Assembly: GCA_003258405.1 (NCBI GenBank)
Contig: QKPN01000023.1
Coordinates: 1 to 59,527, forward strand
Source: Rhodobacteraceae bacterium DSL-40
GTDB taxonomy: Bacteria > Pseudomonadota > Alphaproteobacteria > Rhodobacterales > Rhodobacteraceae
DNA: 59,527 nucleotides
Direction: 5' to 3'
Shown here piece by piece: positions 5,234-40,484 of the stretch. The notes below the pieces were generated by a model. The model searched no databases, was not told the origin of the DNA, and worked only from the letters and a program-made list of their open reading frames with translations. Within the stretch, counting starts at the first letter, position 1, and each line of letters opens with the position of its first letter. The translations under genes were made by a program, and so were the position numbers.

Positions 5234-5275
5234 TCTCCCCTCCTTCCCGATCACGAAGTGCCATTGGACGAATGC

Positions 5276-5299
5276 GGGGCGGCCGCAGCGAGCCGCCCC
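5276..5299. other. Stem-loop between binding-protein and ATPase genes
   Basis: GGGGCGGC (5276-5283) pairs with GCCGCCCC (5292-5299) around an eight-base loop, in the 75-base gap after the binding-protein stop. Such hairpins commonly protect the upstream message or reduce read-through, giving more binding protein than membrane components. No T-run follows, so full termination is unlikely. Confidence 0.5.
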
Positions 5300-5308
5300 C
5301 GGAGCCGG

Positions 5309-6313: not shown

Positions 6314-6392
6314 GGTGGTCTCCCTGTTGTCTGTGGCGCCGCGATGGCCGCGGCGGCGCGGGCTTGCCGCCCCGTTTTCCGGGGCCTTCTGG

Positions 6393-18383: not shown

Positions 18384-19667
18384 CTAGTGGAAGGCGAGAT
18401 CACGCAGGAAGAGCGCGATCTGTGGGAAGAAGATGAGCGCGACCGAAACGCTAAGCAGCATGATGATGAAAGGCGGCGTGCCGCGGATCACCTCCATGTA
18501 GGGCCGCTTGAAGACGGCGATTGCAGTGAAGATGTCACAGCCGAAGGGTGGCGTCGCCGACCCGATCGCAACCTGGAGCGTGATGATCGTGCCCACCAGC
18601 ACTGGATCGAGCCCAACATCTTTCACCACCGGCGCAAAGATCGGAACCAGCACGAGAATGACGACGATCGGATCGACGAACATGCAGCCGATGAAGAAGG
18701 CGATCGAAATCACGAAGAGCACCCCGATCGGCCCCATGTCGGAAATCCCGACGCCCTCAAGGATATGCTGCGGGATCTGGGCAAACGAAATCACCCAGGA
18801 AAATGCCGCACCCGCGCCGACAAGGATGAAGACGACGGCAGTGATGAGGCCCGTCGATTTCGCTGTGGCATAGACTGCCCGCAAACCCATCGAGCGGAAG
18901 ACGAGCACCTCGAGGATCAGCGCATAGAGCACGCAGGCCGCCGCCGCCTCGGTCGGGCTGAAGACGCCACCGTAGATTCCGCCGATGATGATGGCGGGAA
19001 AGCCGAGTGGCCAGAGCGCCTGCCGCACCGCCACCAGCCGCTGCCCCCAGCTGGCCTTCGGCTCGGTCGGCACACCGTGGCGCGTTGCATACCACACGCT
19101 GTAGGTCGAGAAGAGCAGGAGGATCAGCAGCCCCGGCCCGATGCCTGCAATGAAGAGCTCCGCGATCGAGGTGTTGGAGACGACACCATAGATGATCATG
19201 CCGATCGAGGGCGGGATCAGGAAGGCGATGTCGGAGGAGTTGACAATGAGCGCGAGCACGAAACTGTCGTTATAGCCCGCCTTGAGCATCCGCGGCCGCA
19301 AGGGCGAGCCCACCGCGACCACCGTCGCCTGAGTCGAGCCCGAAACGGCGCCAAACATGGTACAGGCAGCTGCCGTCGAGACCGCAAGGCCACCCTTCAC
19401 ATGGCCGACGAAGGCCATAACCATGTCGATGAGCCGGCCTGCGGACTGCCCGCGGGTCATGATGTCGGCGGCAAAGATGAACATCGGCACCGCGATGAGC
19501 GAGGCGGGCCGGATGCCGGCGAGGATCTGCTGGATCATTGTTTCGAGCTGCCCGAAGCCGCCGAAGAGCGAGTAGAATCCCACGAAGGAGCCGACGATGA
19601 GCGGAATCATCATCGGAAACCCCAGCAGGAGCAGCACGATCATGGTCAGGAAAATGGTAAGTGCCAA
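18384..19667 (-). CDS. uehC: Ectoine TRAP transporter large permease UehC (DctM)
   Basis: A 427-residue inner-membrane protein with about twelve hydrophobic segments, the ion-coupled channel subunit of a tripartite ATP-independent transporter. Typical DctM patches include GAVSGSTQATVVAVG, IPPSIGMIIYG and SATPPFGCDIF. The start appears to be TTG 19667, because GAGGGGGCGG lies just upstream and the next in-frame ATG would remove the start of the first membrane helix. It works with UehB and UehA to take up ectoine and 5-hydroxyectoine as nutrients, driven by an ion gradient. Confidence 0.92.
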   Translation of the reverse strand: MALTIFLTMIVLLLLGFPMMIPLIVGSFVGFYSLFGGFGQLETMIQQILAGIRPASLIAVPMFIFAADIMTRGQSAGRLIDMVMAFVGHVKGGLAVSTAAACTMFGAVSGSTQATVVAVGSPLRPRMLKAGYNDSFVLALIVNSSDIAFLIPPSIGMIIYGVVSNTSIAELFIAGIGPGLLILLLFSTYSVWYATRHGVPTEPKASWGQRLVAVRQALWPLGFPAIIIGGIYGGVFSPTEAAAACVLYALILEVLVFRSMGLRAVYATAKSTGLITAVVFILVGAGAAFSWVISFAQIPQHILEGVGISDMGPIGVLFVISIAFFIGCMFVDPIVVILVLVPIFAPVVKDVGLDPVLVGTIITLQVAIGSATPPFGCDIFTAIAVFKRPYMEVIRGTPPFIIMLLSVSVALIFFPQIALFLRDLAFH

Positions 19668-19679
19668 TGCGCCGCCCCC

Positions 19680-20258
19680 TCAGATCTCGAGTTCGTCTTC
19701 CTCGTATCCCTCCAGCACGATCGTGGAGAGATAGATGTCCTTCTCGACCAGATTCTTGATCGCTGTGAGCAGGTACTGGACGCCCGTCATGAAGAAGCCG
19801 ACGGGCACCCAGACATAGATCCACCACACCGGGATCTGCATCGCAGGCAGGATCCGCCCCTGCCCCTTGAGGGTCAGGATGTAGCCGAGCGCATACCAGC
19901 AGAGGCCGAGCATGAAGGTCGCCGTCACCAGCGCGATCAGCACCATCATCGCCTTGCGCAGCGGCGGCGGGAAGGTATCGAACAGCGCTGACATGCGGAT
20001 ATGCCGCCCGTGGCGTGCCGCGTAGCTGATGCCCGCGAAGGTGATGAAGACGATCAGCACACTGTTGAGCTCCTCGGTGAAGAAGAGGCTCGATCGGAAG
20101 ACGAAACGCCCGACGACGTTCGCCACGGTGTTGAGCGCCATCAGCAGCACCCCGGCTGCCAGCATGACGGATTCGATGCGCGCGATGGTGCCGTCGATCA
20201 CCCCGAGCACCCCTGGCAGCGTCGAGTCACGCGAACTGTGGGATTCCGTATCGTTCAA
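19680..20258 (-). CDS. uehB: Ectoine TRAP transporter small permease UehB (DctQ)
   Basis: A 192-residue DctQ-family protein with four predicted membrane helices (around 30-50, 65-82, 105-125 and 145-167) and an acidic C-terminal tail. It pairs with UehC. The start seems to be TTG 20258, with GGGAGGGC seven bases upstream; the next ATG is at codon 32, inside the first helix. It is separated from uehA by 90 bases that contain a strong palindromic hairpin. Confidence 0.9.
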
Positions 20259-20324
20259 GCCCAGCCCTCCCGGCCCGGTGTTGCGAGGCCCTCGCCCCGG
20301 GCAGCTGGCCCCGGCCCAGCCGCG

Positions 20325-20340
20325 CAGGGCGCGCGCCCTG
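20325..20340. other. Palindromic hairpin between uehA and uehB
   Basis: CAGGGCGC (20325-20332) and GCGCCCTG (20333-20340) are perfectly complementary, directly after the uehA stop. It resembles the hairpin after the other binding-protein gene at 5276-5299 and probably raises binding-protein expression relative to the membrane subunits. Confidence 0.5.
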
Positions 20341-20348
20341 TTGCGGCC

Positions 20349-21353
20349 CTACTGCACCGCCTGCAAGTCAGCCTTCATCTGATCGAGGATGGCCTTGCCG
20401 CTGTCCCCGGTCATGCCGACGAAGGTCTCCTCGACCTGACCGGCGGTATCCATGAACGGCTTGCGCTCCTCTTCGGAGAGAATGTTGATCTCCATGGAAG
20501 GCTTCTCTTCCTTGATCTTGGCGAGCGACTCGTCCTGGAGCCCCTGCTGATACTCGAGGATGTATTCGAAGGCGGCATTGGAGGCGTTCTGGATCAGCGT
20601 CTGATCCTCCTCACCGAGCCCATCGTAGAAGCCCTTGTTGGCCATGACCGCGGTGGTGAAGTTGTTGTGCCCGATACAGGTCACAACGTCCGTTACCTCG
20701 TAGATCTTGGTGGATTCGAGAAAGAAGCCCGGATTTTCCTGGCCCTGGATGATGCCCGTCTGAAGCGCCCCGTAGACCTCGCCCCAGGGAAGCGGCGTCG
20801 GCGTCGCACCGAAGGCCTTGTAGCTCTCGACCAGAAGCGGGTTCGTCATCACCCGGAACTTGACCTCGTTGAGGTCCGCCGGGCTGTGTACTGGCGCCTG
20901 CGTGGTCATGCAGACCTCACCTTCCGGGAACATGGTGAGAAGTTCGAGCCCCTGCTGGGCATAAAGCTCCGGGAACATCTCGTGGATCGCCTTCGAGGTG
21001 CGGAAGAACTCGAAGAGCTGCCCCTGATCCTGCGGCAGCAGATAGGGCACGAAGAAGACCTGCGCCTCGGGGATCAGGGCGCCGGTAAAACCCGGGGACT
21101 GGTCCACGAACTGGAGAATGCCTGCCTGGGCCTGCTCCATGATGTCCGCGCTTTCACCGAGCGTGCCGAAGGGAAAGAGCTGGATCTCGTGATCGGAATT
21201 GGCCTCGATCTCCTCCTTGAACTTCTGGGCGTAGACGCCCTGCACCTCCGTCATGGCTTCCTCGAAGGCATAGCGCCATGTGTCGGCACTGGCGATACCG
21301 GCTGCCATCACGCCGATGGCGGTACCGGCCAGCAGAAGAATACGACCTGACAT
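20349..21353 (-). CDS. uehA: Ectoine/5-hydroxyectoine TRAP binding protein UehA (DctP)
   Basis: A 334-residue periplasmic DctP-family binding protein with a Sec signal peptide (cleavage near GIASADTW, residue 23). The mature protein begins with DTWRYAFEEA, and the TRAP-typical helix-rich body includes FGTLGESADIMEQAQ, KFRVMTNPL (the arginine that usually holds the ligand carboxylate) and LPWGEVYGALQTGIIQGQENP. It delivers ectoines to UehBC. ATG 21353 has GGGAGACGAGA upstream. It is the first transporter gene after enuR, across a 244-base regulatory gap. Confidence 0.93.
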   Translation of the reverse strand: MSGRILLLAGTAIGVMAAGIASADTWRYAFEEAMTEVQGVYAQKFKEEIEANSDHEIQLFPFGTLGESADIMEQAQAGILQFVDQSPGFTGALIPEAQVFFVPYLLPQDQGQLFEFFRTSKAIHEMFPELYAQQGLELLTMFPEGEVCMTTQAPVHSPADLNEVKFRVMTNPLLVESYKAFGATPTPLPWGEVYGALQTGIIQGQENPGFFLESTKIYEVTDVVTCIGHNNFTTAVMANKGFYDGLGEEDQTLIQNASNAAFEYILEYQQGLQDESLAKIKEEKPSMEINILSEEERKPFMDTAGQVEETFVGMTGDSGKAILDQMKADLQAVQ

Positions 21354-21532
21354 TCTCGTCTCCCGAACTGAATTCCGTAGGCTGCAAAGCTGCGCACCTG
21401 TCCGGGCAAGCCCGGAAAGGGGAAAGGCGGTCAGCCGACCACCTGGATGTTGCGCATTATTCCCCGGCGTCACGTGCTCCATGAGCACTGCGGCGACGTC
21501 TCACTCCCCTGAACGGTGAAACAGAGACAAAA

Positions 21533-27011: not shown

Positions 27012-27743
27012 ATGGTCAAGATACTGGCGGTCGATGACGACCCGGACGTGCGCGATATCGTCCGCTACGAGATTGAGCAGCAAGGCTGGGAGGTCGAGGA
27101 GGCCGACAGCGGCGCGGGCCTTCGCGAGGCATTGAAGCGCATCGTCCCCGACATCATCCTGCTCGATATCCGGCTGCCCGACGAGGACGGGCTCTCGATC
27201 GCCCAGCGCCTCCGCGCGAATTCGCCCATCCCCATCATCATGCTGACCGGGCTCGGCTCCGACGTGGACCGGATCGTCGGGCTCGAGGTGGGCGCGGACG
27301 ACTATGTCGTCAAACCCTTCAATCCCCGTGAATTGATGGCGCGGATCAAGGCGGTGCTGCGCCGGACCGGCACCAGGACCACGCCGCGCGCGAGCGCAGG
27401 TGCGGCGGCAAGCCCGCTCGACCATGACTGTCGCCGCTTCGGCGGCTGGTTCATCGACCTGACGGCACGAGTGCTCGAAAATCCCGGGGGGGAGACGGTT
27501 TCGCTTACCAATGCCGAATTCCTGCTGCTCGAGGCCTTCGTGAAGGCGCCGCGCTGCATACTGAGCCGCGATCAGCTCCTGGACAAGACGCGAGCACACG
27601 GCGCCGACGTCTTCGACCGGACCATCGACGTGCTGATCCTGCGCCTGCGACGCAAGATCGAGGCCAACCCCGGCGCGCCGCGCCTGATCCGGACCGAGCG
27701 CGGCGCGGGCTATGTGCTCGATGCGGAGGTGGAAAGCCTCTGA
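27012..27743 (+). CDS. OmpR-type response regulator
   Basis: A 243-residue two-component regulator: receiver domain (residues 1-120) with Asp9/Asp10, phospho-acceptor Asp52 (LLDIRLP), Thr79 and Lys101 (VVKPFNP), then a winged-helix DNA-binding domain (about 140-240, with LTNAEFLLLEAF and RTERGAGYVL). ATG 27012 has GGGGAGG upstream. It converges with the hybrid kinase gene, the two ends overlapping by 34 bases, so kinase and regulator are made from opposite strands. It is the probable output of the kinase/binding-protein set at 27710-31875 and a candidate activator of fruBKA. Confidence 0.9.
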   Translation: MVKILAVDDDPDVRDIVRYEIEQQGWEVEEADSGAGLREALKRIVPDIILLDIRLPDEDGLSIAQRLRANSPIPIIMLTGLGSDVDRIVGLEVGADDYVVKPFNPRELMARIKAVLRRTGTRTTPRASAGAAASPLDHDCRRFGGWFIDLTARVLENPGGETVSLTNAEFLLLEAFVKAPRCILSRDQLLDKTRAHGADVFDRTIDVLILRLRRKIEANPGAPRLIRTERGAGYVLDAEVESL

Positions 27744-30430
27744 GGTGTCGCCTCCAGGCGGGCGCGCACGGCCTGAAGCAGATGCTCCTCGCTGACGGGC
27801 TTCTGGAGCAGGGCAGCGCGGTCGATGCCCGCCTGCCCCGGCTCGGCCGAGGTGAAGAGCACCGGGAGATCCGGGCGGCGGGCACGTGCCGCGCGGGCAA
27901 GACCCGCTCCATCAAGAGCGCCGGGCATCACCACATCGGTATAGAGCAGACGGATCTCCGGCGTGCCGTCAAGGATCTCGAGCGCGCTCGCGGCATCGTC
28001 GGCGCAGAGCACACGGTAGCCATGGCGGGCAAGCTGGCTGGAAGTGATCTCCAGAAGGTCGAGATCATCGTCGACAACAAGGATGGTCTCGCCTGCCGAT
28101 GAAGCTTCGGGCCGGGGGATCTCCCGCAGCGGCGGGGCGACGGGATGCGGAGCCGGCACGGTTTCCGCAAGCGGCAGGCACAGAGTGATGGTGGTGCCCT
28201 TTCCCGGCCGACTGTCGATGGTGACCGAGCCCCCCGACTGCTTGACGAAGCCGTAGACCATGCTGAGCCCGAGCCCGCTGCCCTTGCCCACGGGCTTGGT
28301 GGTGAAGAAGGGCTCGAAGACCTGCTCGCGTACCTCGGGCGTCATGCCTTCGCCCGTATCACTCACCGCAATGTCGATGAAGCCGCCCACGGCAGGCCGG
28401 GTCGAGAAGACGATGCGTCCGTGTCCCTCCATCGCGTCACGCGCATTGATGGCAAGGTTCATCAGCGCGGTCTCGAGCTGGCCCGGATCGATATGGACAG
28501 CCGGCAGCCCCTCGGCGAGATCTGTGACAAGCTCGACACCCGAGCCGAGGCTGTAATCGAGCAGGTCGGTCATGCCCGCGACCAGAGCATTGGCATCGAC
28601 AACCTCCGGCGTCAGCTTCTGGCGGCGGGAGAAGGCCAGCAGGCGCTCGACCTGCCCCGCGGCGCGCTCGGCCGCACCCAGTGCCTTGCGCGTGCGGCCG
28701 AGCAGGGCGGGATTATCCTCAAGCTCGCGCTCGAGAATGAAGAGATTGCCGAGGATCACTGCCAGAATATTGTTGAAATCATGCGCAATACCGCCGGTAA
28801 GTTGGCCAACTGTCTCCATCTTCTGGGCCTGACGGAGCTGACTTTCCGTGGCGCGCTGCTCGGTGATGTCCATATGAATGGTAACGAATCCTCCGCGCGG
28901 GATCGGGTTTGAGCGAAGCTCGATCACGCGCCCGCCCGGCAGCTGCATCTCGAAGCGCTGGGTGAGATGGAGGCGGCTGCGCGACATTTCCTCGAAACCG
29001 GCGAGTGCCCCACCGGGCAACACGATCCGCGCACCGCGTGCGCCGAGCGTGCGGTTGATCTCGTCGAGCGGAATGCCGACCGGCACGTCATCGCTCGTGA
29101 AGCCGTAAAGCGCGAGATATTGCGGGTTCCAGGCGATCAGGCGGCGCTCAGCGTCAAAGACCGAGAAGCCGTCATTCATGTTGTCGAAGGTCGCAAGCAG
29201 GAGGCTCGACTTTTCGGCGAGCTCGCGGTCGAGCACATCCATGCGGAAGGCGTTGTCGCGGAAGACGGTGAACGCGCGGGCGAGCGCCCCGATCTCGTCG
29301 CGGCGCTCGACCCCGGGCACCGCGGCCCCGCGCTCGCCGCGGGCAAGCCGGGTCATCGCGTCGGTCACGCCCGCGAGATTGCGGCCGAGCGGACGAATGA
29401 CGAAGACGTAGGACAACGCGCTTGCAAGCAGGATCACGCCCGCCCCGATCGCGATGAACTGGCCCGTGCGCGAGACGATCGCCGCCCGCAGGCTCTCGGT
29501 CACGCCGAGGATCGCGCGGTTGGCGTCGAGCACCAGTGCATCGACCCCCGCCTTGAGCCCGGCGGCCTCGCCCCGGCTCGCATCGAGCGCGCCAGCTGCT
29601 GCCGCGAGGCTCGCAAGCTCGGCGCGGCGCAGGGCAAACAGCCCCTCGGTCCCTGTCTGGCGATCAATGAGGCCGAGAGCGGCGCGGAACTCGGCACGCA
29701 GGCTCTCGGGAATCTCCTCCGCAACCCGGGCCAGTTCGCGCGCGCTGCGGCCGTAATGCGCCTCGATCTGCGCCAGCGCGCCCGGCGCCGCGCTTCGCGC
29801 CGACACAAGGTCGCCCGCCACGCTGTCGGTCAGGCGCTCGGCGGTCAGGAGTGGCGCCTGGCTCCGCACCGCAGCACGGGTGATTGCAGGATCGGTTTCG
29901 CCCGCCCCGGCAGTGATTGCGGCGATGGCAAGGATCGAGGGTCCGATGAGCTGACGCACGCGATCCTGCCCGGCACGGAGACGAAGCTCTTCGGCGGCAA
30001 TCTCGGCGGCAAGGGCGGACCGCCGCTCGAGCTGGGCGCTTAGTGCTCCGAGGCTCGCGGCAAGCGCATCGGCCCGGCCGGCGATCCCCTCCACCGCCTC
30101 GCCGGGCATGGAGGTGCGCAGCGCATCGAGCTGGCGGTCGAAGGCCGCGAGATCGGCGGCGATCGCGGCCTGTTCCCCCGCCCTTGCCGGCCCCTCGGAG
30201 GCCGCCATCAGGCTTGCACCCCGCTGCTGGAGCCGTTCGCCGATCCGCGCAAGGCCGAGGGCGGCGCGCACCGCCGGAATATCCTCGCCGGTCACGGTCT
30301 CGACCCGGGTGCTGATATCCTCGAGCGCACGGAGGGCCGCGAAGCTCGCGATCATGACCGCAAGGGCAGCGAGGCCGAAAATGAGAAGGAGCCGCCGCTG
30401 GATGCCGGTCGGCCAGAGCCGGGCCATCAC
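27710..30430 (-). CDS. Hybrid sensor histidine kinase with long periplasmic domain
   Basis: A 906-residue inner-membrane sensor. The order is TM1 (12-34), a helical periplasmic domain (about 35-323), TM2 (324-345), HAMP (346-400), PAS (405-525, NMNDGFSVFDAERRLIAWNPQ type), HisKA with His550 (GGIAHDFNN), HATPase_c (N662, DTGEGM, GSGLGLS) and a C-terminal receiver (781-895) with Asp832 and Lys877. The helical periplasmic part recalls TorS. ATG 30430 overlaps the stop of the binding-protein gene by four bases, so the two are co-translated, as expected for a TorT/TorS-like binding-protein/kinase pair. No separate Hpt protein is encoded nearby, so transfer to the OmpR-type regulator may be direct or reversed by the receiver. 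Confidence 0.9.
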   Translation of the reverse strand: MMARLWPTGIQRRLLLIFGLAALAVMIASFAALRALEDISTRVETVTGEDIPAVRAALGLARIGERLQQRGASLMAASEGPARAGEQAAIAADLAAFDRQLDALRTSMPGEAVEGIAGRADALAASLGALSAQLERRSALAAEIAAEELRLRAGQDRVRQLIGPSILAIAAITAGAGETDPAITRAAVRSQAPLLTAERLTDSVAGDLVSARSAAPGALAQIEAHYGRSARELARVAEEIPESLRAEFRAALGLIDRQTGTEGLFALRRAELASLAAAAGALDASRGEAAGLKAGVDALVLDANRAILGVTESLRAAIVSRTGQFIAIGAGVILLASALSYVFVIRPLGRNLAGVTDAMTRLARGERGAAVPGVERRDEIGALARAFTVFRDNAFRMDVLDRELAEKSSLLLATFDNMNDGFSVFDAERRLIAWNPQYLALYGFTSDDVPVGIPLDEINRTLGARGARIVLPGGALAGFEEMSRSRLHLTQRFEMQLPGGRVIELRSNPIPRGGFVTIHMDITEQRATESQLRQAQKMETVGQLTGGIAHDFNNILAVILGNLFILERELEDNPALLGRTRKALGAAERAAGQVERLLAFSRRQKLTPEVVDANALVAGMTDLLDYSLGSGVELVTDLAEGLPAVHIDPGQLETALMNLAINARDAMEGHGRIVFSTRPAVGGFIDIAVSDTGEGMTPEVREQVFEPFFTTKPVGKGSGLGLSMVYGFVKQSGGSVTIDSRPGKGTTITLCLPLAETVPAPHPVAPPLREIPRPEASSAGETILVVDDDLDLLEITSSQLARHGYRVLCADDAASALEILDGTPEIRLLYTDVVMPGALDGAGLARAARARRPDLPVLFTSAEPGQAGIDRAALLQKPVSEEHLLQAVRARLEATPQRLSTSASST

Positions 30431-31875
30431 GGCGCTGTCTCCCCGAGGCCCATTGCCTCACGGTAGTGACGGGCCTGCGCATCGCGGCCCAGGCGGTCGG
30501 TGATCTGTTCCCACTGGATCGCGGCATCGGCAAGCGCCGTGGCGGGGGCCACCTCGCCCGCCAGTATCCGGCCAAGCTGGGTATCGAGCGCGTCCATATA
30601 GGCCGGATAGCCCGGCAGGCGCAGATCGCGGGCGGCTTCGGGTGCGGCAAGGCTCTGGCGCAGGACGGCGAGATAGCGGGCGGAGGCATCCTTGCCCATC
30701 ACCGCCTGCCAAAGCGGGCCATCCTCGAGCTGCGACGTGCGATAGGGATTGAAGCCCGAAGCGCCGTCGGTGACATCGCGATCGGCGTGCTCCGGTGCCG
30801 CGAGCCAGGCGATGTAATCCCAGGCGGCCTTCGGATCGCGCGCGCTGAGCGGCACGGCCGCGAGCCAACCGCCGAAGGCGAGGAACGGCACCTCGCGGAC
30901 TGTCGAGAGCGTCTCCCAGGTGCGCGTGCGGCCGTTCCAGCTTTCGCGGGATCCGGGAAGGGCGAAGAAGCCCACCTGCCCGGCCACAGCGGAGTTTTCG
31001 GGATCGGCCGCCAGCACGCCGATGTCGGACCAGTCGATCGCCATCGCAGCCTCGCCGGCGGCGAAGCGACGGCGCACATCGTGACTCGCGATGGCGAGGG
31101 AATCGGGCGGACCCAGACGCGCCGCCGCGAGATACTCGTCAAGCGCGCGTTGCCAGGCCGGGTTGTCGATGGCAGGCGTCATCGTCACCGGATCGAAGAA
31201 GAGCGTGCCGGGCTCGCCGGGGTGCGTCGCATAGGCCGCGGCATGACCGATGAGGGACCAGAGCCGCTGGCCGCCGGCAGCATGGGCCTCGAGGGTGCCT
31301 GCCAGCGGCTTGCCATCCGGCCCGGGCCGCCCCTCGAAAAATGCAGCGATGGCAAGGTAGTCCTCCCAGCTCCGAGGCGGTTCAAGCGCCCGACCCGTCG
31401 CAGCATGAAACGCCGCGCGCATTGCGGGATCCTCGAAGAGATCCCGGCGGTAGGCTCCGATCAGCAGGTCGCCGTCAATGGTCACCGCCATCGTCCTGCC
31501 CTGCCACCGCATGAGCGCATCGCGATAGATCGGATGGATGCCGCGGACCAGGTCGCTTTCGGCAAGAGCCTCGGGCACCGGCGCGAGATAGGGCGCGAAA
31601 TCCGGTAGCCAGGCCGAGGGGATGAGCAGCACGTCGGCTTCCGAGAGACCGGTCACGAAGCCCACCATGATCTCGCCGTAAAGGCTCGCGAAGGGCCGCC
31701 GGATGACCTCGACGGCAATGCCGGTCTCCCGCGCAAAACTCTCGCCGTAGCGCGCTGCCGGGCCGCCGATTGGTGCGCCGTCGCGGGTCACGACCCGAAG
31801 GGATTCCGCACTGGCTGCGCCGGAGAACAGCCCGAATGTTACAAATATTACAGCGGCGCGGGCGAGGAGCGACAT
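30427..31875 (-). CDS. Periplasmic solute-binding protein, probable kinase-partner sensor
   Basis: A 482-residue exported protein with a signal peptide (cleavage near GAASA/ESL, residue 23) and the two-lobe family 1 extracellular solute-binding fold (SLRVVTRDGAPIGG, ADVLLIPSAW, AAMAIDWSDIGVLA, FGGWLAAVPLS). No ABC permease or ATPase lies near it, while its stop overlaps the hybrid kinase start (ATGA), so it probably senses a ligand and presents it to the kinase. ATG 31875 has only a weak GAACGGGAT site. It is divergent from fruB by 70 bases, so a sugar such as fructose is an attractive but unproven ligand. Confidence 0.85.
   Translation of the reverse strand: MSLLARAAVIFVTFGLFSGAASAESLRVVTRDGAPIGGPAARYGESFARETGIAVEVIRRPFASLYGEIMVGFVTGLSEADVLLIPSAWLPDFAPYLAPVPEALAESDLVRGIHPIYRDALMRWQGRTMAVTIDGDLLIGAYRRDLFEDPAMRAAFHAATGRALEPPRSWEDYLAIAAFFEGRPGPDGKPLAGTLEAHAAGGQRLWSLIGHAAAYATHPGEPGTLFFDPVTMTPAIDNPAWQRALDEYLAAARLGPPDSLAIASHDVRRRFAAGEAAMAIDWSDIGVLAADPENSAVAGQVGFFALPGSRESWNGRTRTWETLSTVREVPFLAFGGWLAAVPLSARDPKAAWDYIAWLAAPEHADRDVTDGASGFNPYRTSQLEDGPLWQAVMGKDASARYLAVLRQSLAAPEAARDLRLPGYPAYMDALDTQLGRILAGEVAPATALADAAIQWEQITDRLGRDAQARHYREAMGLGETAP
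31839..31852. promoter_or_regulatory. TTACA direct repeat near the fruB promoter
   Basis: TTACA occurs at 31839-31843 and again at 31848-31852 (TGTAA twice on the other strand), in an AT-rich island inside the signal-peptide codons of the binding protein and about 100 bases upstream of fruB. OmpR-type regulators bind short direct repeats, so this is a possible site, though the nine-base period is slightly short for that family. Confidence 0.3.
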
Positions 31876-31945
31876 ATCCCGTTCATCTGCCTGATATCCA
31901 AGAGACCCAGCGAAGCATGACACAGAACATGCAAAGGAGGAAATC
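31876..31945. promoter_or_regulatory. Divergent start region of fruB and the binding protein
   Basis: Only 70 bases separate the two starts, so promoters must overlap or reach into the binding-protein gene. AAAGGAGGAAATC at its right end is the fruB ribosome site. I found no sure -35/-10 pair. Confidence 0.5.
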
Positions 31946-34420
31946 GTGGCTATCCTGACAAATGACATGGTTGCGCTCGGCACGAGCGTTGCAACGAAGG
32001 CCGAGGCTATCGCCAAGGCCGTCGAACTTCTTGCCGCCGCCGGCAAGATCGATCCGCGCTACGGCGACAGCATGCTCGGCCGCGAGAAGGTCGCAAATAC
32101 CTTCCTCGGCAACGGCATCGCCATTCCGCACGGCCTGCCGAAAGACCGCGAGATGATCCGCGATACCGCGATCGCGGTGGTGCAGATCCCCGGCGGCGTC
32201 GACTGGGGCCAGGGCAACACCGCCCGCCTTGTGGTCGGCATCGCCGCGAAATCGGACGAGCATCTGGAAATTCTCTCGAACCTCACGGACGTTCTCGGCG
32301 ACGCGGAGGAAGCCGAAAGGCTCGCCACGACCCCCGATGCCGCTGTCATCGTCGCCAAGCTCACCGGGACCGAGCAGCCCGCCACCGCTTCAAGCGGCTC
32401 CGGGCTCGACGAATTCGCAAACGGATTCGATGCGGTGATCGAAGGGGCGCACGGGCTCCATGCCCGACCCGCGACGGCGCTGGTCGAACTTTCCAAGGGC
32501 TTTGCCTCCGAGATCCGGGTGAGCCATGGCGGCACGGTCGCCAATGCAAAGAGCCTGATCTCGCTCCTAAAGCTCGGCGCTGCGGGCGGGGCGACGATCC
32601 GCGTGAGCGCGGACGGCGCCGATGCCGATGCCGCCCTCGCCGCCCTCAAGGCTGCCATTGCCGAAGGGCTTGAGGACGAGGGCGAAGCCGCTGCCGAAGC
32701 CGGCGCAGCTGCCCCCGCGGGCGGCGCACCGGCCTACGATTATGCCGGGCAGACTGTCACCGGCATCTCCTCCTCCCCGGGCATGGCGATTGCGCCGATC
32801 TTCCAGTTCGCCCGCGAACACATTGTCTTCCAGCCCGACGCCGCCGACCCTGCGCTTGAACTGGAGCGGCTCGACCAGGCTCTGCACGCGGCATTCCGCC
32901 AGCTCGACGAGCTTTACGACGAGGTCTGGAAGAAATCCGGCCCCGCGAAGGCCGGGATCTTCCGTGCGCATCAGGAATTCCTCGAGGATCCCGAGATGAT
33001 CGAGGCGGCGCACACCCTCATTCGCAAGGGCCGGAGCGCGGCCTATGGCTGGGAGCAGGCCTATAGCGAACGCGCCGACATTCTCGCGGGCATGAAGGAT
33101 CCGGTGCTTGCGGGCCGCGCGGTCGACCTGCGCGATGCCGGCCGCCGGGTTCTGCGCCAGCTTGCAGGCGTCGAGAAGGACGCGAGCGCGCTGCCGACCG
33201 CTCCCTGCATCCTGGTCGCCGATGATCTCACGCCCTCCGACACCGCGCAGCTCGATCCGCGGCTCGTTCAGGGCCTCTGCACCGCTGGCGGCGGCCCGAC
33301 CTCGCATACCTCGATCATCGCCCGCTCGCTCGACATCCCGGCCGTGGTCGGCGCAGGCGCGGGCGTGCTCGAACTCGTCGAGGGAACACCCGCGCTCCTC
33401 GACGGCAGCTATGGCCTGCTAGTGACCAACCCGACCGAGGGCGATCTTGAGCATGCCCGTGCCGCAATCGTCGATCTCAAGGCCCGTCGCGAGGCAGAAC
33501 AGCGCGACTGCTATAAGCCCGCGCTCACCACGGACGGCAGCCGCATCGAGGTCGTCGCCAACATCAGTGATCTCGCGGAAGCCGAAGCGGCAGTGAACGC
33601 CGGCGGCGAGGGCGTTGGCCTCCTCCGCACCGAATTCCTCTTTGTCCATCGCGATGCAGCCCCGAGCGAGGAAGAGCAGATCGAGATCTACTCGGGCATG
33701 CTCAAGGCCATGAACGGCCTGCCGATCATCATCCGCACCCTCGATGTCGGTGGCGACAAGGCGATACCCTACCTGCGCATGCCGGTGGAGGAGAACCCGT
33801 TCCTGGGCGAACGTGGCATCCGCTTCTGTCTCAGCCATGAAGCGATCTTCCGCACTCAGCTTCGCGCGATCTACCGCGCCTCGGCAAACGGGCCGGTCCG
33901 GATCATGTTCCCGATGATCTCGATGGTCCACGAGCTAGACGCTGCCCTGCGGATCGCCGAGGAAGTCCGGGCCGAGGTCGGGGCCGAAAAGGTTGAGATG
34001 GGCATCATGATCGAGATCCCCTCTGCGGTGATGATGGCGCCCGAGCTTGCCAGCAAGGTGGATTTCTTCTCGATCGGCACCAACGACCTTACGCAATACG
34101 CGCTCGCCATGGACCGGATGCATCCGGTGCTCGCCAAGCAGGCCGACGGCATGCATCCGGCCGTGCTGCGGCTCATCGAGCGCACGGTTGCGGCGGCCGA
34201 CGCGGCAGGGATCTGGGTGGGCGCCTGCGGCGGCATCGCGGCCGATCCGGTCGGCGTGAGCGTGCTGACCGGGCTTGGCGTCAAGGAGCTCAGCGTCTCG
34301 ATCCCCTCGATCGCGGCGGTGAAGGCCCAGCTGCGCGAGCAGTCGATGGCGTCGAACAAGGCGCTTGCGAAGCGCGCTCTCGCCTGTTCCGACGCCGCCG
34401 CCGTGCGCGCGCTGCGCTGA
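31946..34420 (+). CDS. fruB: Fructose PTS multiphosphoryl transfer protein (EIIA-HPr-EI)
   Basis: An 824-residue cytoplasmic fusion carrying all soluble PTS steps: EIIA-Fru (1-145, His62 in IAIPHG), HPr (about 160-245, His172 in GLHARPA) and enzyme I (about 270-824, phospho-His454 in GGPTSHTS, with C-terminal PEP-binding IGTNDLTQYAL). It passes phosphate from PEP to FruA, so the operon needs no other PTS parts. The start is GTG 31946 with a strong AAAGGAGG site; no ATG upstream in frame. It heads fruB-fruK-fruA, the order known from Rhodobacter. Confidence 0.96.
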   Translation: MAILTNDMVALGTSVATKAEAIAKAVELLAAAGKIDPRYGDSMLGREKVANTFLGNGIAIPHGLPKDREMIRDTAIAVVQIPGGVDWGQGNTARLVVGIAAKSDEHLEILSNLTDVLGDAEEAERLATTPDAAVIVAKLTGTEQPATASSGSGLDEFANGFDAVIEGAHGLHARPATALVELSKGFASEIRVSHGGTVANAKSLISLLKLGAAGGATIRVSADGADADAALAALKAAIAEGLEDEGEAAAEAGAAAPAGGAPAYDYAGQTVTGISSSPGMAIAPIFQFAREHIVFQPDAADPALELERLDQALHAAFRQLDELYDEVWKKSGPAKAGIFRAHQEFLEDPEMIEAAHTLIRKGRSAAYGWEQAYSERADILAGMKDPVLAGRAVDLRDAGRRVLRQLAGVEKDASALPTAPCILVADDLTPSDTAQLDPRLVQGLCTAGGGPTSHTSIIARSLDIPAVVGAGAGVLELVEGTPALLDGSYGLLVTNPTEGDLEHARAAIVDLKARREAEQRDCYKPALTTDGSRIEVVANISDLAEAEAAVNAGGEGVGLLRTEFLFVHRDAAPSEEEQIEIYSGMLKAMNGLPIIIRTLDVGGDKAIPYLRMPVEENPFLGERGIRFCLSHEAIFRTQLRAIYRASANGPVRIMFPMISMVHELDAALRIAEEVRAEVGAEKVEMGIMIEIPSAVMMAPELASKVDFFSIGTNDLTQYALAMDRMHPVLAKQADGMHPAVLRLIERTVAAADAAGIWVGACGGIAADPVGVSVLTGLGVKELSVSIPSIAAVKAQLREQSMASNKALAKRALACSDAAAVRALR

Positions 34421-34430
34421 GGAGGTGGAA

Positions 34431-35417
34431 ATGAGCGGCAAACCCAGGATCGCAACCGTCTCGCTCAATTCGGCGGTCGACCAGACGGTGACCGTGCGCG
34501 GCTTCGCCGTCGATACGGTCAACCGGGTGAGCGAGGCGCGGGTGGACGCGGGCGGCAAGGGCGTGAACGTCGCCTCCTTCCTCGCGCATTTCGGCCATGA
34601 AGTGGTCGTCACCGGTCTGCTCGGACGCGACAACGAAGCGCTGTTCGCGCAGCACTTCGAAGCTGCAGGCGTGGTGGACGCCTGCCTGCGCGTGGCTGGC
34701 GCCACACGGACCAACGTGAAGATCGTCGATCCCGACAACAACACGGTGACCGACCTGAACTTCCCGGGCATCCGGACCGCCGACGCCGATCTCGCGGCCA
34801 TCCGCGAGCGGCTCGAGGTGGTCGCGGCAGGCGGGATCGACTGGCTGGTGCTCGCGGGCAGCCTGCCCGAAGGCATGCCCGTCACCGCCTATGCCGATCT
34901 CATCGCCTGGGCGAAGGGCCGCGGCATCCGCGTGGCTCTCGACACCAGCGGTGCGCCTTTCGGTCCGGCTGTGCTGGCCGGGCCGGATATCATCAAGCCC
35001 AATATTGCCGAACTGCGCGAGCTCACCAGCCAGCCGCTGGAGGATCATGACGCAGTGATCGCCGCAGCCCGGCGGCTCAACGCCCGCGGTATCAGCATGG
35101 TCGCCGTGTCGATGGGGGCCGAGGGCGCGATCCTTGTCACGCCCGAGGCGGCGGTCCTTGCCCGGCCGCCGCGCGTGCCGGTCGCAAGCACGGTGGGGGC
35201 GGGCGACGCGATGGTCGCAGGCCTCGTCCATGCCGCAACGCTCGGCCTGCCGCTCGCGGAGGCCGCACCGCTCGCAACCGCCTTCTCGCTCGGCGCGCTC
35301 GGCGAGATCGGCCCGCGCCTGCCCGAAACAGCAAAGATAGAGGCTCTCGCCCGCCAGGTCGGTGTCACCGAACTCTGCGAACCGGCGAAGAGCCCCAGAA
35401 CGGAGGAAACCCAATGA
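34431..35417 (+). CDS. fruK: 1-phosphofructokinase
   Basis: A 328-residue PfkB-family kinase converting fructose 1-phosphate, made by FruA, to fructose 1,6-bisphosphate. The N-terminal [10 protein letters not shown] motif (39-48) and the catalytic VGAGDA motif with Asp259 are present. ATG 34431 has GGAGG upstream, ten bases after the fruB stop, and the fruA start overlaps its stop by four bases, giving a tightly coupled operon. Confidence 0.95.
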
Positions 35418-37210
35418 CACGAATCGTCGCCGTCACCGCCTGCCCGACCGGCGTCGCGCACACCTATCTCGCCGCCGAGGCCCTCGAGGCCACCGGGCGC
35501 AAGATGGGCCATGAAATCCGCGTCGAGCGCCAGAGCGCCGAGGGGACGAGCCAAGCGCTGACCGAGGCCGAGATCGCCGCAGCAGATCTCGTCATCATCG
35601 CCGCCGACATCCACGTGGCGCTCGATCGCTTCGACGGCAAGCCGGTCCGTCGCGTCTCGACGAGCCGCGCGATCCGCGAGACGGACGAGGTCATCGAGGC
35701 CGCGCTGGAAGCCGCCGGCCTTGCCGAAGCTCCGAAGGCCGCCCCCGTGCCCACGGCTTCGGCGACAGCCCACGCTACCCCAGCGGAGGCCCCCTCGAGC
35801 AAACCGATGAAGATCGTCGCGATCACCTCCTGCCCGACCGGCATCGCGCATACCTTCATGGCCGCCGATGCGCTGAAGAAAGCGGCGACGAAGCGCGGCT
35901 ACGAGATTCATGTCGAGACGCAGGGCTCGGTCGGCGCCAAGACGCCGCTCACCGATCAGCAGATCGCCGAAGCCGATCTCGTGGTGATCGCGGCCGACAC
36001 CCATGTCGATGACAGCCGCTTCACGGGCAAGAAGATCTACAAGTCCGGCGTCGGCGAGGCGGTGAAGCGCGCCGACCAGCTGCTGACCGAGGCCATCGCA
36101 GGCGGCGAGATCCTCGGGGGCGGCGGAGCCAAGGGCAGTGGCGACTACATGAGCTCGGTCGCAAAGGCCAAGGCCTCACGCAAGGCCAAGCAGAGCGGCC
36201 CCTACCAGCACCTGCTGACGGGCGTCTCCTACATGCTGCCGCTTGTCGTCGCAGGCGGTCTGCTGATCGCGCTCTCCTTCGTCTTCGGCATCAAGGCCTT
36301 CGAGCAGGAAGGCACGCTCCCGGCCGCGCTGATGGCGATCGGCGGAGGGGCCGCGTTCCAGCTCATGGTTCCGGTGCTCGCCGGTTACATCGCCTATTCG
36401 ATCGCCGACCGGCCCGGCCTCACCCCCGGCCTCATCGGCGGCATGCTCGCAGTAAACCTCAACGCGGGCTTCCTCGGCGGCATCGTCGCAGGCTTCCTTG
36501 CGGGCTATGTCGCCCGGTGGTTGCGCGACCACATCAACTTGCCGACCAACCTCGAGGGGCTGAAGCCCGTCCTGATCCTGCCGCTGCTCTCGACACTCGT
36601 CGTTGGTCTGGTGATGGTCTACATCGTCGGTGAACCGGTTGCGGCGCTGATGGCGGCGATGACGACCTTCCTCCAGGGTCTCGGCACCACCAATGCCGTG
36701 CTGCTCGGCCTCATCCTCGGCGGCATGATGGCTGTCGACATGGGCGGCCCGATCAACAAGGCAGCCTACACCTTCGCGGTGGGCCTGCTGACCTCCGACA
36801 CCTATGCGCCGATGGCCGCGGTGATGGCGGCCGGCATGACCCCGCCGCTCGGCCTTGCCATTGCCACGATGGTCGCGAAGAACCGCTTCACCATCGAGGA
36901 GCGCGAAGCGGGGAAGGCCGCCTTCGTACTCGGGCTCTCCTTCATCACCGAGGGCGCGATCCCCTTTGCCGCGAAGGACCCGGCCCGGGTGATCCCCTCG
37001 ATCATCGTCGGCTCGGCCGTAACCGGCGCCCTCTCGATGATGTTCGGCTGCGGGCTCGTCGCCCCCCATGGCGGGATCTTCGTCCTCGCCATCCCGAATG
37101 CGGTGATCAACCTCGGGATGTATGCCGTCTCGATCGCCGTCGGAACGCTCGTCACGACTGTCCTGCTGGTGGCGCTGAAAAAGCCTGTCGAGGTTGAAGC
37201 GCTCGCCTGA
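35414..37210 (+). CDS. fruA: Fructose PTS permease (EIIB'BC)
   Basis: A 598-residue inner-membrane transporter with a degenerate EIIB' domain (1-100, [10 protein letters not shown], Cys10), an alanine-rich linker, EIIB (133-230, phospho-Cys140 in SCPTGIAHT) and EIIC from about 260 with eight or more helices ([32 protein letters not shown]). It imports fructose as fructose 1-phosphate. ATG 35414 overlaps fruK and has ACGGAGG upstream. Both B domains keep their cysteine, although only the second is thought to carry phosphate in FruA proteins. Confidence 0.95.
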
Positions 37211-37405: not shown

Positions 37406-39394
37406 TTGCCGCAGTTGACCTGGGCTCTCCCGACACCGCTGCCGAAGCTGCGCCCCCGCGTGGCATTTCGGACCAGCCTTGCGGTGCTCGCGAGCCTCCT
37501 GCTGCTCGGGCTCAACCTCACCGGCGCACCGGCGGCACGTGCGAGCGAGACGCTCGTATTACGACAAGATTCGAGCGAGCCCCCCGGACGACGGCAGCAG
37601 AAACGCTTCCTGCTCATCTATGCCGCGCACAGCATGCTCGCGGCCAACCGGGAAGCAACCGATGGCGTGAAACAGGTTCTCGATGCCGCATTCGGCTCGG
37701 ATTATGAGGCCTACAGCGAGTATCGCGACGCCTTCCGCTTTCCCGGTGACGCCGCAGACGAGAACTTCACCAACCAGATCACCGCGCGTTACAGTGGCCT
37801 GACCTTCGATGCGATCTTCGCCTTCGGCAACACGGCCTACGAGTTCCTGCGCGCGCATCGCGACGAATTCGCACCCGGCGTGCCGGTGATCTTCGGCGGT
37901 GTCGGCACGGATGCGATTGCAGGCGAAACCTTGCCTCCGGACATTCACGGCATCACCAGCTCCCATGCGATTGCAGGCACGCTCGCCTTTGCCCGCGCCC
38001 TCCAGCCCGAGGCGACGCATGTGGTGATCCTGACCGGATCGGGCCGGATCGACCGCAACTGGCAGGCACTCGCCCGCCGCCAGTTCGCCGGAGAGACCGA
38101 ACTTTCGATCGACTATGTCTCTGGCCTGACGCTCCCGGGGTTCGAGGACCTCGCCGCCAGCCTGTCTCCGGATACCATTGTCATCATCCTCTCCGTCTTC
38201 GAGGATGCCAACGGCCAGACATTTGCGCCGGTCAACGCCGCCAGCATGATCGCAAAACGATCGTCTGCCCCGGTTTATGCCGTCTACGACACCCATGTTG
38301 GCGGTGGCGTCGTCGGCGGCAGCGTGGAACGCTTCGAGGCGATCGGAACCGCGATGGCCGAACTTGCGCTGCGCGTCCTCTCGGGCGCGGCGGAGCCCGC
38401 CACCGTCGAGCTCATGGCCGAAACCCCGGTCGTCGACTGGCGCCAGCTGATGCGCTTCGGGCTCGACCCGGACCGCCTGCCGCCGGGCACCGAGATCCTT
38501 TTCCACGATCCCTCTGCCTGGGAACGCTACCGGATCCAGATCCTGCTCGCGGTCACGGTGATCCTGATGCAGTCGGGCACGATCGCGGCGCTCGTCGTGC
38601 AGGACAGGCGGCGGCGCAGCGCGCAGCGGGAAGCCTCTGCCCGGCGGCTTGAGCTCGCCCATGTCTCCCGCGTTGCCCAGCTTGGCGAGCTTTCGGGCGC
38701 GCTCGCACACGAGCTGAACCAGCCCCTCACCTCGATCCTTGCCAATGCCGAGGCCGGCGCGATGCTCGCGAAGGCCTCGGCACCCGATCTCGAGGAAATC
38801 ACCGCAATTCTCGAGGATATCGCCGAGGACGACCGGCGCGCCGCAGGGATCATCTGCGAACTGCGCCGCCTGATGGAAAAGGGCGAGAACGAGTTCACGC
38901 TCGTCGATCTCAACGCCGTGGTGAGCTCCGCGATCACGCTCGCCCGCAGCGAGCTCATCCTGCGCGGCGTGCAGATCCAGGCGCGGAAGGCCGGCGACGA
39001 GCTAATGGTGCACGGCAATCGCGCGCAGCTCGAGCAGGTGCTGCTCAATCTGATGATGAATGCTGCCGATGCGATGGCCGACCAGCCCGCCGAAAGCCGG
39101 CAGATGGTGGTCACGACCCGACTCCGCCCCGACGGCTGGCGCGAACTCTCGGTGCGCGACCACGGCCCCGGCCTGGCGCCCGGTCTCGGACCCGACCCGT
39201 TCCGGCCCTTCGTCACGACAAAATCACACGGTCTGGGGCTCGGCCTCTCCATCTGCCGCACAATCGCGCAGTCCCATGGCGGGCGGCTTGGTTTCGATCC
39301 CGGCGCGATTGACGGCGCCCGGGTCATTCTGGCGCTTCCAGCGCCGCAGAAGGCATTTCAGACAGGCATTCGAGAGAGGGCATCCGGACCATGA
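37406..39394 (+). CDS. Histidine kinase with periplasmic ABC-binding-like sensor domain
   Basis: A 662-residue membrane kinase. An N-terminal hydrophobic segment (20-42) is followed by a periplasmic domain (about 65-345) that resembles ABC substrate-binding proteins of the ABC_sub_bind type (FDAIFAFGNTAYEFL, VPVIFGGVG), then TM2 (375-398), HisKA with His435 (GALAHELNQPLTS) and HATPase_c (MNAADAM, GLGLGLSI). The start is uncertain: TTG 37406 is the longest with a hydrophobic N-terminus, GTG 37460 is an alternative, and neither has a good ribosome site. The regulator at 39391 overlaps its stop. No receiver is attached. The ligand is unknown. Confidence 0.85.
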   Translation: MPQLTWALPTPLPKLRPRVAFRTSLAVLASLLLLGLNLTGAPAARASETLVLRQDSSEPPGRRQQKRFLLIYAAHSMLAANREATDGVKQVLDAAFGSDYEAYSEYRDAFRFPGDAADENFTNQITARYSGLTFDAIFAFGNTAYEFLRAHRDEFAPGVPVIFGGVGTDAIAGETLPPDIHGITSSHAIAGTLAFARALQPEATHVVILTGSGRIDRNWQALARRQFAGETELSIDYVSGLTLPGFEDLAASLSPDTIVIILSVFEDANGQTFAPVNAASMIAKRSSAPVYAVYDTHVGGGVVGGSVERFEAIGTAMAELALRVLSGAAEPATVELMAETPVVDWRQLMRFGLDPDRLPPGTEILFHDPSAWERYRIQILLAVTVILMQSGTIAALVVQDRRRRSAQREASARRLELAHVSRVAQLGELSGALAHELNQPLTSILANAEAGAMLAKASAPDLEEITAILEDIAEDDRRAAGIICELRRLMEKGENEFTLVDLNAVVSSAITLARSELILRGVQIQARKAGDELMVHGNRAQLEQVLLNLMMNAADAMADQPAESRQMVVTTRLRPDGWRELSVRDHGPGLAPGLGPDPFRPFVTTKSHGLGLGLSICRTIAQSHGGRLGFDPGAIDGARVILALPAPQKAFQTGIRERASGP

Positions 39395-40041
39395 CGACGA
39401 CAACGATCGAACCAGAGGATCGGGCAGAGGATCGTATGACAGGACCGGTCCTGCACCTCGTCGATGATGATCCGGCGGTGCGGCGCGCACTGGCCCGGCT
39501 GCTCGCTGCGGCCGGATATCGCAGCGAGGGCCATGGCAGCGCCGAGGAATTCCTCGCCCGCCACAATCCCGCCATACCCGGCTGCGTCATCGTCGACCTC
39601 TGCCTGCCCGGCTCCGACGGGCTCGACCTGCAGGCCCGGCTTGCCGCAGCCCCTTCCGCGCCACCACTGATCTTCCTGACCGGGCAGGGTGATCTCGGCG
39701 CAGGCGTCCGTGCGATGAAGGGCGGCGCGGTCGATTTCCTCACCAAGCCGGTCGAGGCCGAAGCCCTGCTCGCCGCCGTCGGCGATGCGCTCGCGCGCGA
39801 CCGCGACGCGCGGGCCGCATGTGCCGCGCAGTCCAGCTTCGAGGACCGCTTCGGTCTGCTCACGCCGCGGGAACGCGAAGTGCTCGACGGTGTCGTCGCC
39901 GGGCAGCTCAGCAAGCAGATTGCTGCCGAGCTCGGCGTCGCGGAGAAAACGGTCAAGGTCCATCGCGGCCGACTGATGCAGAAGATGCAGGCCCGCACCA
40001 TCGCCGATCTCGTGCGCCAGGTCGTGACCCACCGCGGCTGA
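39391..40041 (+). CDS. FixJ/NarL-type response regulator
   Basis: A 216-residue regulator with receiver domain (18-130, phospho-Asp69 in VIVDLCLPG, TKPVEAEAL lysine) and a C-terminal LuxR-type helix-turn-helix (LTPREREVLDGVVAGQLSKQIAAELGVAEKTVKVHR). The HTH and the HELNQP-type kinase next to it are typical of FixL/FixJ-like pairs. ATG 39391 overlaps the kinase stop (ATGA); an internal ATG at 39436 with GAGGATCGT upstream is a possible alternative. Likely target genes are those just downstream, including the sulfatase. Confidence 0.92.
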   Translation: MTTTTIEPEDRAEDRMTGPVLHLVDDDPAVRRALARLLAAAGYRSEGHGSAEEFLARHNPAIPGCVIVDLCLPGSDGLDLQARLAAAPSAPPLIFLTGQGDLGAGVRAMKGGAVDFLTKPVEAEALLAAVGDALARDRDARAACAAQSSFEDRFGLLTPREREVLDGVVAGQLSKQIAAELGVAEKTVKVHRGRLMQKMQARTIADLVRQVVTHRG

Positions 40042-40112
40042 CGCAGCGGCGGCCCGGGCATTGGACCTGAGGCCAACTGTCGCGCGAGCGCCGCGCAGGC
40101 TAGGTTCACGGG

Positions 40113-40484
40113 ATGGAAATCCAGTCCCGTCTCGTTGCAATCGTCGATGATGACGCGAGCGTCTGCCGCGCGCTGTCGCGCGTCGTGAGGTCGCTCGGGT
40201 TTAGTACGGCGGTCTACGCTTCGGGCGAGGCCCTGCTCGGCGACGCCGCCGGGATGCCGCTCGATCATGTGCTACTCGACCTTCACCTGCCGGGCCTGCG
40301 TGGCACCGACCTGCTGCAGGCCCTCCGGTTGTGCAGCGCGGCGACGCAGATCGTGGTGATGACCGGCCTCGACAGACCCGGCGCTCGCCAGGCCTGCCTC
40401 GCGGCCGGAGCGGTGGCCTATATCCTGAAACCCGTCCAGCGCGTTGAACTCGAACGGCTTCTCGCGGCCAGCCCGCCAGGCTGA
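40113..40484 (+). CDS. Stand-alone receiver domain protein
   Basis: A 123-residue single receiver domain with Asp12-14 acidic cluster, phospho-acceptor Asp56 (VLLDLHLPG), the Thr in VVMTGLD and Lys in ILKPVQ. There is no output domain; the frame closes shortly after. It follows the FixJ-type regulator by 71 bases with a weak ribosome site. It may act as a phosphate sink or intermediate for the kinase at 37406, or be a remnant of a longer regulator. Confidence 0.85.
   Translation: MEIQSRLVAIVDDDASVCRALSRVVRSLGFSTAVYASGEALLGDAAGMPLDHVLLDLHLPGLRGTDLLQALRLCSAATQIVVMTGLDRPGARQACLAAGAVAYILKPVQRVELERLLAASPPG

Follow-up and report, generated by a model that had tools for sequence, protein, structure and literature searches.

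A candidate three-component sugar sensor linked to a fructose-type PTS operon in Rhodobacteraceae bacterium DSL-40 and related bacteria

We describe three genes, encoding a sugar-type solute-binding protein (SBP), a hybrid histidine kinase and an OmpR-type response regulator, that adjoin the fruBKA operon of Rhodobacteraceae bacterium DSL-40 and are likely to form a dedicated three-component sensor for this fructose-type phosphotransferase system (PTS) operon. The set (hereafter, the triad) is a variant of the SBP-coupled hybrid two-component systems, and a real and new one; in a literature search that left subscription journals mostly outside its reach, we recognized no report in which a kinase coupled to an SBP governs a fructose PTS. 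Judging from sequence, the operon is probably switched in these bacteria through the sensing of a sugar outside the cell. The fuller reading, in which the triad is an extracellular-sugar switch of the PTS operon and the sole operator predicted in the DSL-40 genome, located in the SBP signal-peptide codons, couples induction to feedback, appears to us evenly balanced. Coordinates without a locus label refer to the window, that is, the whole 59,527-nucleotide stretch of DSL-40 DNA that was analyzed.

Organization and distribution of the six-gene block

Across positions 27012–37210, the list of open reading frames (ORFs) and Pfam and NCBIfam searches give the gene order regulator (+), kinase (−), SBP (−), a gap, and fruB, fruK and fruA (all +). 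The OmpR-type response regulator (27012–27743, + strand; Pfam Response_reg, 1.2e-28, and Trans_reg_C, 7.4e-22) overlaps tail to tail, by 34 bases (27710–27743), the hybrid histidine kinase (27710–30430, − strand), which comprises HAMP, PAS_7, HisKA (H550), HATPase_c and Response_reg (D832) domains. The first-pass annotation had described the regulator as lying behind the kinase within one set; it is indeed present beside the kinase but is convergent with it and lies outside the kinase operon. The SBP gene (30427–31875, − strand; SBP_bac_1, 1.3e-14) encodes a signal peptide and shares 4 bases (30427–30430) with the kinase gene, as it does in Pseudovibrio exalbescens. No transporter gene other than those of the PTS was found in the block, so that the SBP has no ABC partner there, in agreement with the earlier description of a binding protein without transporter genes that overlaps the kinase. 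The SBP start was set at the ATG at 31875, chosen for the good signal peptide that follows it, whereas the ORF list gives 32046; with this start and the GTG start of fruB at 31946, the 70 bases previously noted between the divergent starts (31876–31945, by sequence reading) are exact.

The three fru genes are consecutive and, by Pfam and NCBIfam, encode an EIIA-HPr-EI fusion (fruB, 31946–34420, + strand), a 1-phosphofructokinase (fruK, 34434–35417, + strand; TIGR03828, 1.5e-93, 313 bits vs a cut-off of 292) and a fructose-type EIIBC (fruA, 35414–37210, + strand); the fruK start at about 34434 is placed inside an ORF listed from 34365. Two other importers were found among the 29 ORFs searched with Pfam, namely, a TRAP set (18384–21488) and an ABC set (1720–6484) that includes a binding protein from a different family. 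Immediately beyond fruA, the window contains another two-component set (37406–40484), which consists of a kinase with a long N-terminal part without assigned domain, a FixJ/TtrR-like LuxR-type regulator and a stand-alone receiver, and is followed by a sulfatase gene. This second set has no counterpart in the two closest loci described below and, thus, the shared unit stops at fruA.

A search of contigs with the SBP as the query yielded nine loci, the closest two of which belong to Tropicimonas sp. IMCC34043 (L017) and P. exalbescens (L018); their respective identities to the window are 70% and 55% for the SBP, 62% and 47% for the kinase, 78% and 59% for the regulator, and 77% and 71% for FruA. 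Furthermore, a kinase search of the genus Tropicimonas, nine genomes to which DSL-40 does not belong, matched three genomes and added two loci with the whole block (L141 and L142). The identical six-gene order is therefore present in four further genomes, those of Tropicimonas, two more members of its genus and Pseudovibrio, for a total of five genomes from three genera, the named ones falling into two orders, Rhodobacterales and Hyphomicrobiales. In all five blocks, the SBP gene is next to the kinase gene with the regulator gene adjacent, and the 34-base overlap between kinase and regulator is preserved. Counting the co-occurrence of the three genes with fruBKA, as had been proposed, thus gives linkage for each of the five close orthologous sets. 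Because the four other blocks were found with the SBP or the kinase as the query, not with fru genes, this linkage is more than chance.

The distribution of the block is patchy. At E ≤ 1e-100, FruA was matched in 3 of the 394 genomes of the family sample, 7 of the 385 genomes of the class sample and 2 of 87 in the Pseudovibrio family, and a single one of 11 genomes of the DSL-40 genus contains fruA (E ≤ 0.001); the own-genus SBP search covered DSL-40 and G130. Among the matches listed for the family sample, SBP identity outside DSL-40 did not exceed 43%, and eight loci with 41–43% SBP identity (L027–L034) contained no kinase or fru matches of at least 90 bits within flanks of 1.5 kb. On plasmids, the two SBP relatives examined out of 592 records (H4 and H8) belong to ordinary ABC operons, the full kinase has zero matches at E ≤ 1e-100, and FruB matches 75 records, six of which were examined. 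Taken at the level of sequence, it is likely that the block and the operon were gained and lost jointly.

The sensor, the binding protein and a candidate operator

The first 342 residues of the kinase match no Pfam family, and no HPt domain was detected in the protein by Pfam at E ≤ 0.001. Alignment shows that all five block kinases retain the His that accepts the phosphoryl group, along with Asp and Lys of the receiver; the receiver Asp of the regulator is likewise conserved in all five blocks. The N-terminal 400 residues, modeled from an alignment of three sequences (pLDDT 80.7, pTM 0.60), yielded an all-helical structure for which the best PDB matches are TorS sensor domains (3o1i, 3o1h, 3o1j and 3i9y), the top one, from the TorS-TorT complex (3o1i), with an E-value of 5.6e-5, a target TM-score of 0.80 and 14% identity. 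The kinase sensor accordingly models as a TorS-type helical domain, and the parallel with TorT/TorS drawn in the first-pass annotation holds at the level of this model. For the SBP, modeled separately from the sensor (pLDDT 80.1), the best structure matches are 4rya (‘ABC transporter substrate binding protein (Sorbitol)’) and 5iai (‘Sugar ABC transporter’), the ligands of which we take to be mannitol and ribitol. These two are also the only sequence hits among solved structures at E ≤ 0.001 and, with only about 20% identity, they do not allow the SBP ligand to be read off.

When the five SBP-fruB junctions were aligned, the only stretch kept in all of them was the tandem direct repeat GTAAYWWTTGTAAY (GTAAY-WWTT-GTAAY). 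In the window, this repeat is GTAATATTTGTAAC (31838–31851, − strand), which spans SBP codons 9–13, and it occupies signal-peptide codons in all five blocks. Counted from the SBP start, which is clear in four loci, it begins at base 25 in each of these; in L141, where no ATG is kept at the corresponding start, it lies in the same signal-peptide stretch. The distance from the repeat to the fruB start is 95 bases in the window, 92 in L017, 109 in L018, 93 in L141 and 92 in L142. We take the repeat, on sequence grounds, as a candidate operator of the OmpR-type regulator. Its period is 9 bases, and sites of the OmpR/PhoB family have a longer period, of 10–11 bases; no match to a sigma-70-type promoter was found in 31780–32000. 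Within 340 bases scanned at the start of the regulator gene itself, there is no copy with three or fewer mismatches.

Because the repeat was picked out visually in the alignment and defined from the five junctions before any counting, genome scans test its uniqueness and are no independent discovery. In the window, it is the single match with up to two mismatches (0.06 expected; 6 of 100 shuffles with at least one). In the 4.37-Mb DSL-40 genome, the single match with up to one mismatch is the one at the fru junction, compared with three for the reversed control pattern, which makes the divergent SBP/fruB region the only predicted target. The corresponding counts for pattern and reversed control are 2 and 5 in G783, 4 and 11 in G784, 1 and 3 in G872, and 6 and 5 in G873, so that, among the block genomes, the pattern exceeds the control in G873 alone, and barely. 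Over 21 genomes, we found 11 exact matches, five at fru junctions and six elsewhere (one each in G783, G790, G800 and G876, and two in G873). Given that, G873 aside, the one-mismatch counts are not above control, the case for an operator rests on position, not on number. An extra exact copy in G873 (L172:1501–1514, contig C126) is located upstream of an ORF for a putative secreted binding protein and is possibly a second target in that genome.

Codon usage and absence from other loci bear on the same question. In each of the five blocks, the repeat contains two Val codons, both of them GTA (ten positions), and GTA accounts for 2.0, 2.4, 3.0 and 3.3% of the Val codons in the block genes and 13.4% in Pseudovibrio; for L141, the SBP codon count was made from the tblastn start, downstream of the repeat, and the GTA pair was taken from the junction alignment. 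The naive product for ten GTA codons, about 10^-14.4, exaggerates the improbability, given that these are related loci and that the motif was picked afterwards. The signal-peptide codons that neighbor the repeat show little conservation. Additionally, the repeat (GTAAY-N4-6-GTAAY) was found in none of 13 comparison loci, among them L143–L147, L087, L094 and two Azospirillum loci of the Fru-PTS2 type; two of these, L143 and L144, contain SBP-kinase pairs without a regulator gene.

The fru lineage, remote relatives and known systems

Consistent with the earlier observation that no LacI-type gene is near, the window contains none, and none of the eight LacI matches of the DSL-40 genome is on the same contig. 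The best-scoring LacI genes of DSL-40, G783 and G784 (with 8, 20 and 11 LacI matches, respectively) are 30, 32 and 34% identical to FruR, compared with 55–57% identity among FruRs of other families. No FruR ortholog was thus recognized in these three of the five block genomes; there is no LacI-type FruR beside fruB, and no Cra-like palindrome with up to one mismatch was found in the window.

An unrooted tree of FruB and FruA (FruK was not included) was built for 19 loci, including the near-duplicates L095–L097, L179 with L182, and L178 with L184, and leaving out L099 (G604, no fruB found) and L180 (a record without annotation). All ten LacI-linked loci form one clade with a support of 100. LacI-type genes divergent beside fruB were read in G046 and G051, their homologs are in the same place in G434, G562, G659 and G682, and annotated LacI genes are so placed in three Azospirillum records and one Sphingobium record. 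On the other side of the tree are nine loci, five with the triad, two from Azospirillum with a different kinase/regulator set and two with neither, and none of the nine showed a LacI neighbor. In G800 and G746, LacI homologs and the triad are both absent beside the fru locus, and the triad-side operons at L087:8579–13790 and L094:8095–13523 have neither adjacent. The first-pass annotation proposed that the triad replaces control by internal fructose 1-phosphate. This wording is too strong, because the unrooted tree does not show a replacement of FruR: the triad FruB and FruA are on the side where LacI neighbors were not observed, and the lineage may never have had FruR.

In the Pseudovibrio family, the kinase search gave six matches at E ≤ 1e-100 in 5 of 87 genomes, one being the Pseudovibrio fru block. 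At two others (L143:7519–16287 and L144:7574–16322), phnCDE-type ABC genes come directly after an SBP-kinase pair; homology revealed no regulator gene at either, and alignment shows that both kinase receivers lack the Asp and that L144 also lacks the kinase His. These pairs may represent a sensor pair converted into something non-phosphorylating. At the remaining three (L145–L147), kinase and regulator are present, and BLAST with the block SBPs found no SBP. At L145 (4368–12306), the only one of the three read gene by gene, the kinase gene comes last in an ABC operon that encodes a binding protein, a double permease and an ATPase; the SBP of this operon is of another subtype, and the operon products score below the cut-offs of the AEP- and iron-type models. 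This operon is downstream of an edd gene, an operon read by eye as alpha-glucoside-like ABC lies behind it, and a convergent OmpR-type regulator gene overlaps the kinase gene by 43 bases. The contexts at L143–L145 suggest that the kinase family is tied to ABC binding proteins, with the fru link as one sub-branch. Hence, the expectation that would have counted against the first-pass proposal, namely, that the set normally sits apart from fruBKA, fails for the close orthologs and holds just for remote relatives. A profile of the sensor domain gave 40 matches among 385 genomes of the class; SBP matches were found at none of the 29 fetched loci other than that of DSL-40 (flanks of about 1.5 kb), and these loci were rejected as SBP-coupled relatives and taken as unrelated TorS-like kinases.

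The system most similar in its sensor is TorT-TorS-TorR of TMAO respiration, which likewise combines a periplasmic binding protein gene, a hybrid kinase with a helical sensor and an OmpR-family regulator. However, the window regulator scores 206 bits against the TorR profile (cut-off 275) and the kinase 114 bits against the TorS equivalog TIGR02956 (cut-off 676.5). TorS carries a C-terminal HPt, for which the window kinase has no match; TorT is a binding protein of another type than the SBP_bac_1 protein found here; and the output here is a PTS operon. BT1754 of Bacteroides is a single-protein system of a polysaccharide locus and is not known to involve a separate SBP or a PTS; it is reportedly a hybrid two-component system tied to fructose sensing (PMC3404733, PMC5061871). 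The ten LacI-linked FruR(Cra)-fruBKA loci resemble the block in that a regulator gene is divergent from fruB at the same place, but they have a cytoplasmic LacI-type regulator and form a separate fru clade, whereas the window encodes a periplasmic-sensor system.

ChvE-VirA-VirG, which serves sugar sensing in Agrobacterium, also comprises a sugar-binding protein, a hybrid kinase that ends in a receiver and an OmpR-family regulator. Without an HPt in the window kinase, the present system is nearer to VirA-VirG than to TorS; however, its sensor model matches TorS, its score for the VirA-like family is 226 bits vs a cut-off of 647, and the block contains no virulence genes. The VirA receiver is reported to control VirG activation (PMC4705274). 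In CuaD-CuaS-CuaR of Ruminiclostridium, a cellobiose system, the signaling SBP is encoded with a kinase and a regulator and the system controls a sugar-uptake operon (PMC10384115); the host there is of the Clostridium type and the controlled operon encodes an ABC transporter instead of a PTS. Fru-PTS2 of Azospirillum brasilense shares the triad side of the fru tree, with no LacI gene seen and with kinase and receiver genes adjoining fruBKA, but these genes are co-directional, no SBP gene is adjacent, and the hybrid kinase matches that of the window only from residue 534 on, at 40% identity. At this locus (L178:6081–19688), genes for an ATP-binding protein, a receiver and a PAS kinase precede the operon and a gene for a HAMP kinase follows it. 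Fru-PTS2 is reported not to be fructose-inducible, and its authors think it not fructose-specific (PMC11837500).

Proposed mechanism and alternative readings

We propose that a sugar in the periplasm would bind the SBP, which is of the sugar-ABC type and has no transporter beside it, and we infer the ligand to be fructose or a related hexose or polyol. The loaded SBP would dock on the hybrid kinase at its TorS-like helical domain. The kinase would change its autophosphorylation and pass phosphate to the OmpR-type regulator, either directly or with its own receiver as a gate, as no HPt domain is present in the kinase. The phosphorylated regulator would then bind the repeat in the first SBP codons, most likely activating rather than repressing fruBKA and, because the repeat is inside the transcribed SBP gene, also feeding back on SBP-kinase expression. 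Induction could thereby come before uptake, without the need for cytoplasmic fructose 1-phosphate. The initial suggestion of an outside-sugar sensor that controls the PTS operon is partly supported by the fivefold linkage, the shared candidate operator, the TorS-like sensor and the lack of a FruR ortholog in three block genomes, with fructose as a possible ligand.

There is a substantial chance, although somewhat short of even, that the set controls fruBKA in response to a signal other than fructose. This signal would be a polyol, an oligosaccharide that contains fructose, or a compound of the phosphorylated or phosphonate kind, used together with this PTS. The sugar and sorbitol annotations of 5iai and 4rya, the nearest solved SBPs, would fit such a signal, as would the phnCDE-type genes beside L143 and L144, although those pairs, lacking the receiver Asp and in one case the kinase His, may have another role. 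A. brasilense Fru-PTS2, on the same tree side, points the same way, since it is described as not induced by fructose and of doubted specificity (PMC11837500); against this, FruA belongs to the fructose-type EIIBC proteins and the FruK score exceeds the cut-off for 1-phosphofructokinase.

We consider it unlikely that the set controls its own expression or that of other genes and simply lies next to fruBKA, with the repeat serving the SBP-kinase operon only. Such an arrangement would suit the location of the repeat within the SBP gene, and precedents exist. The YpdAB genes adjoin the fry PTS of Escherichia coli. YpdAB is reported to act on yhjX (PMC5552118). In A. brasilense, the FruR gene diverges from fruB1, which FruR nevertheless does not seem to control (PMC11837500). 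These A. brasilense cases, FruR/fruB1 and Fru-PTS2, make neighborhood alone weak evidence, and it is the shared site and the fivefold block that carry the argument: linkage is intact in five of five cases and across two named orders, the spacing to fruB stays within 92–109 bases, and DSL-40 has no second site with up to one mismatch. We give little credence to the notion that the repeat, rather than being an operator, simply reflects the composition of the signal peptide or is a promoter element rich in AT. It is AT-rich, falls in hydrophobic-core codons and has match numbers that do not clearly exceed the reversed control; however, each of the ten Val positions is GTA, whose background share is 2.0–13.4%, the adjacent signal-peptide codons are little conserved, and the SBP paralogs without a regulator gene (L143 and L144) are without the repeat.

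The reading that we prefer, an extracellular-sugar sensor dedicated to fruBKA, departs from the textbook induction of fructose PTS operons by the internal product, fructose 1-phosphate, acting on FruR/Cra. If true, placing a fru operon under a periplasmic binding protein would uncouple its induction from uptake, offering a clean system for comparing outside with inside sensing of one sugar. The operator in signal-peptide codons would be an easy target for synonymous recoding, with the LacI-linked and other fru loci as natural controls, and the PTS would join the known outputs of SBP-coupled kinases.
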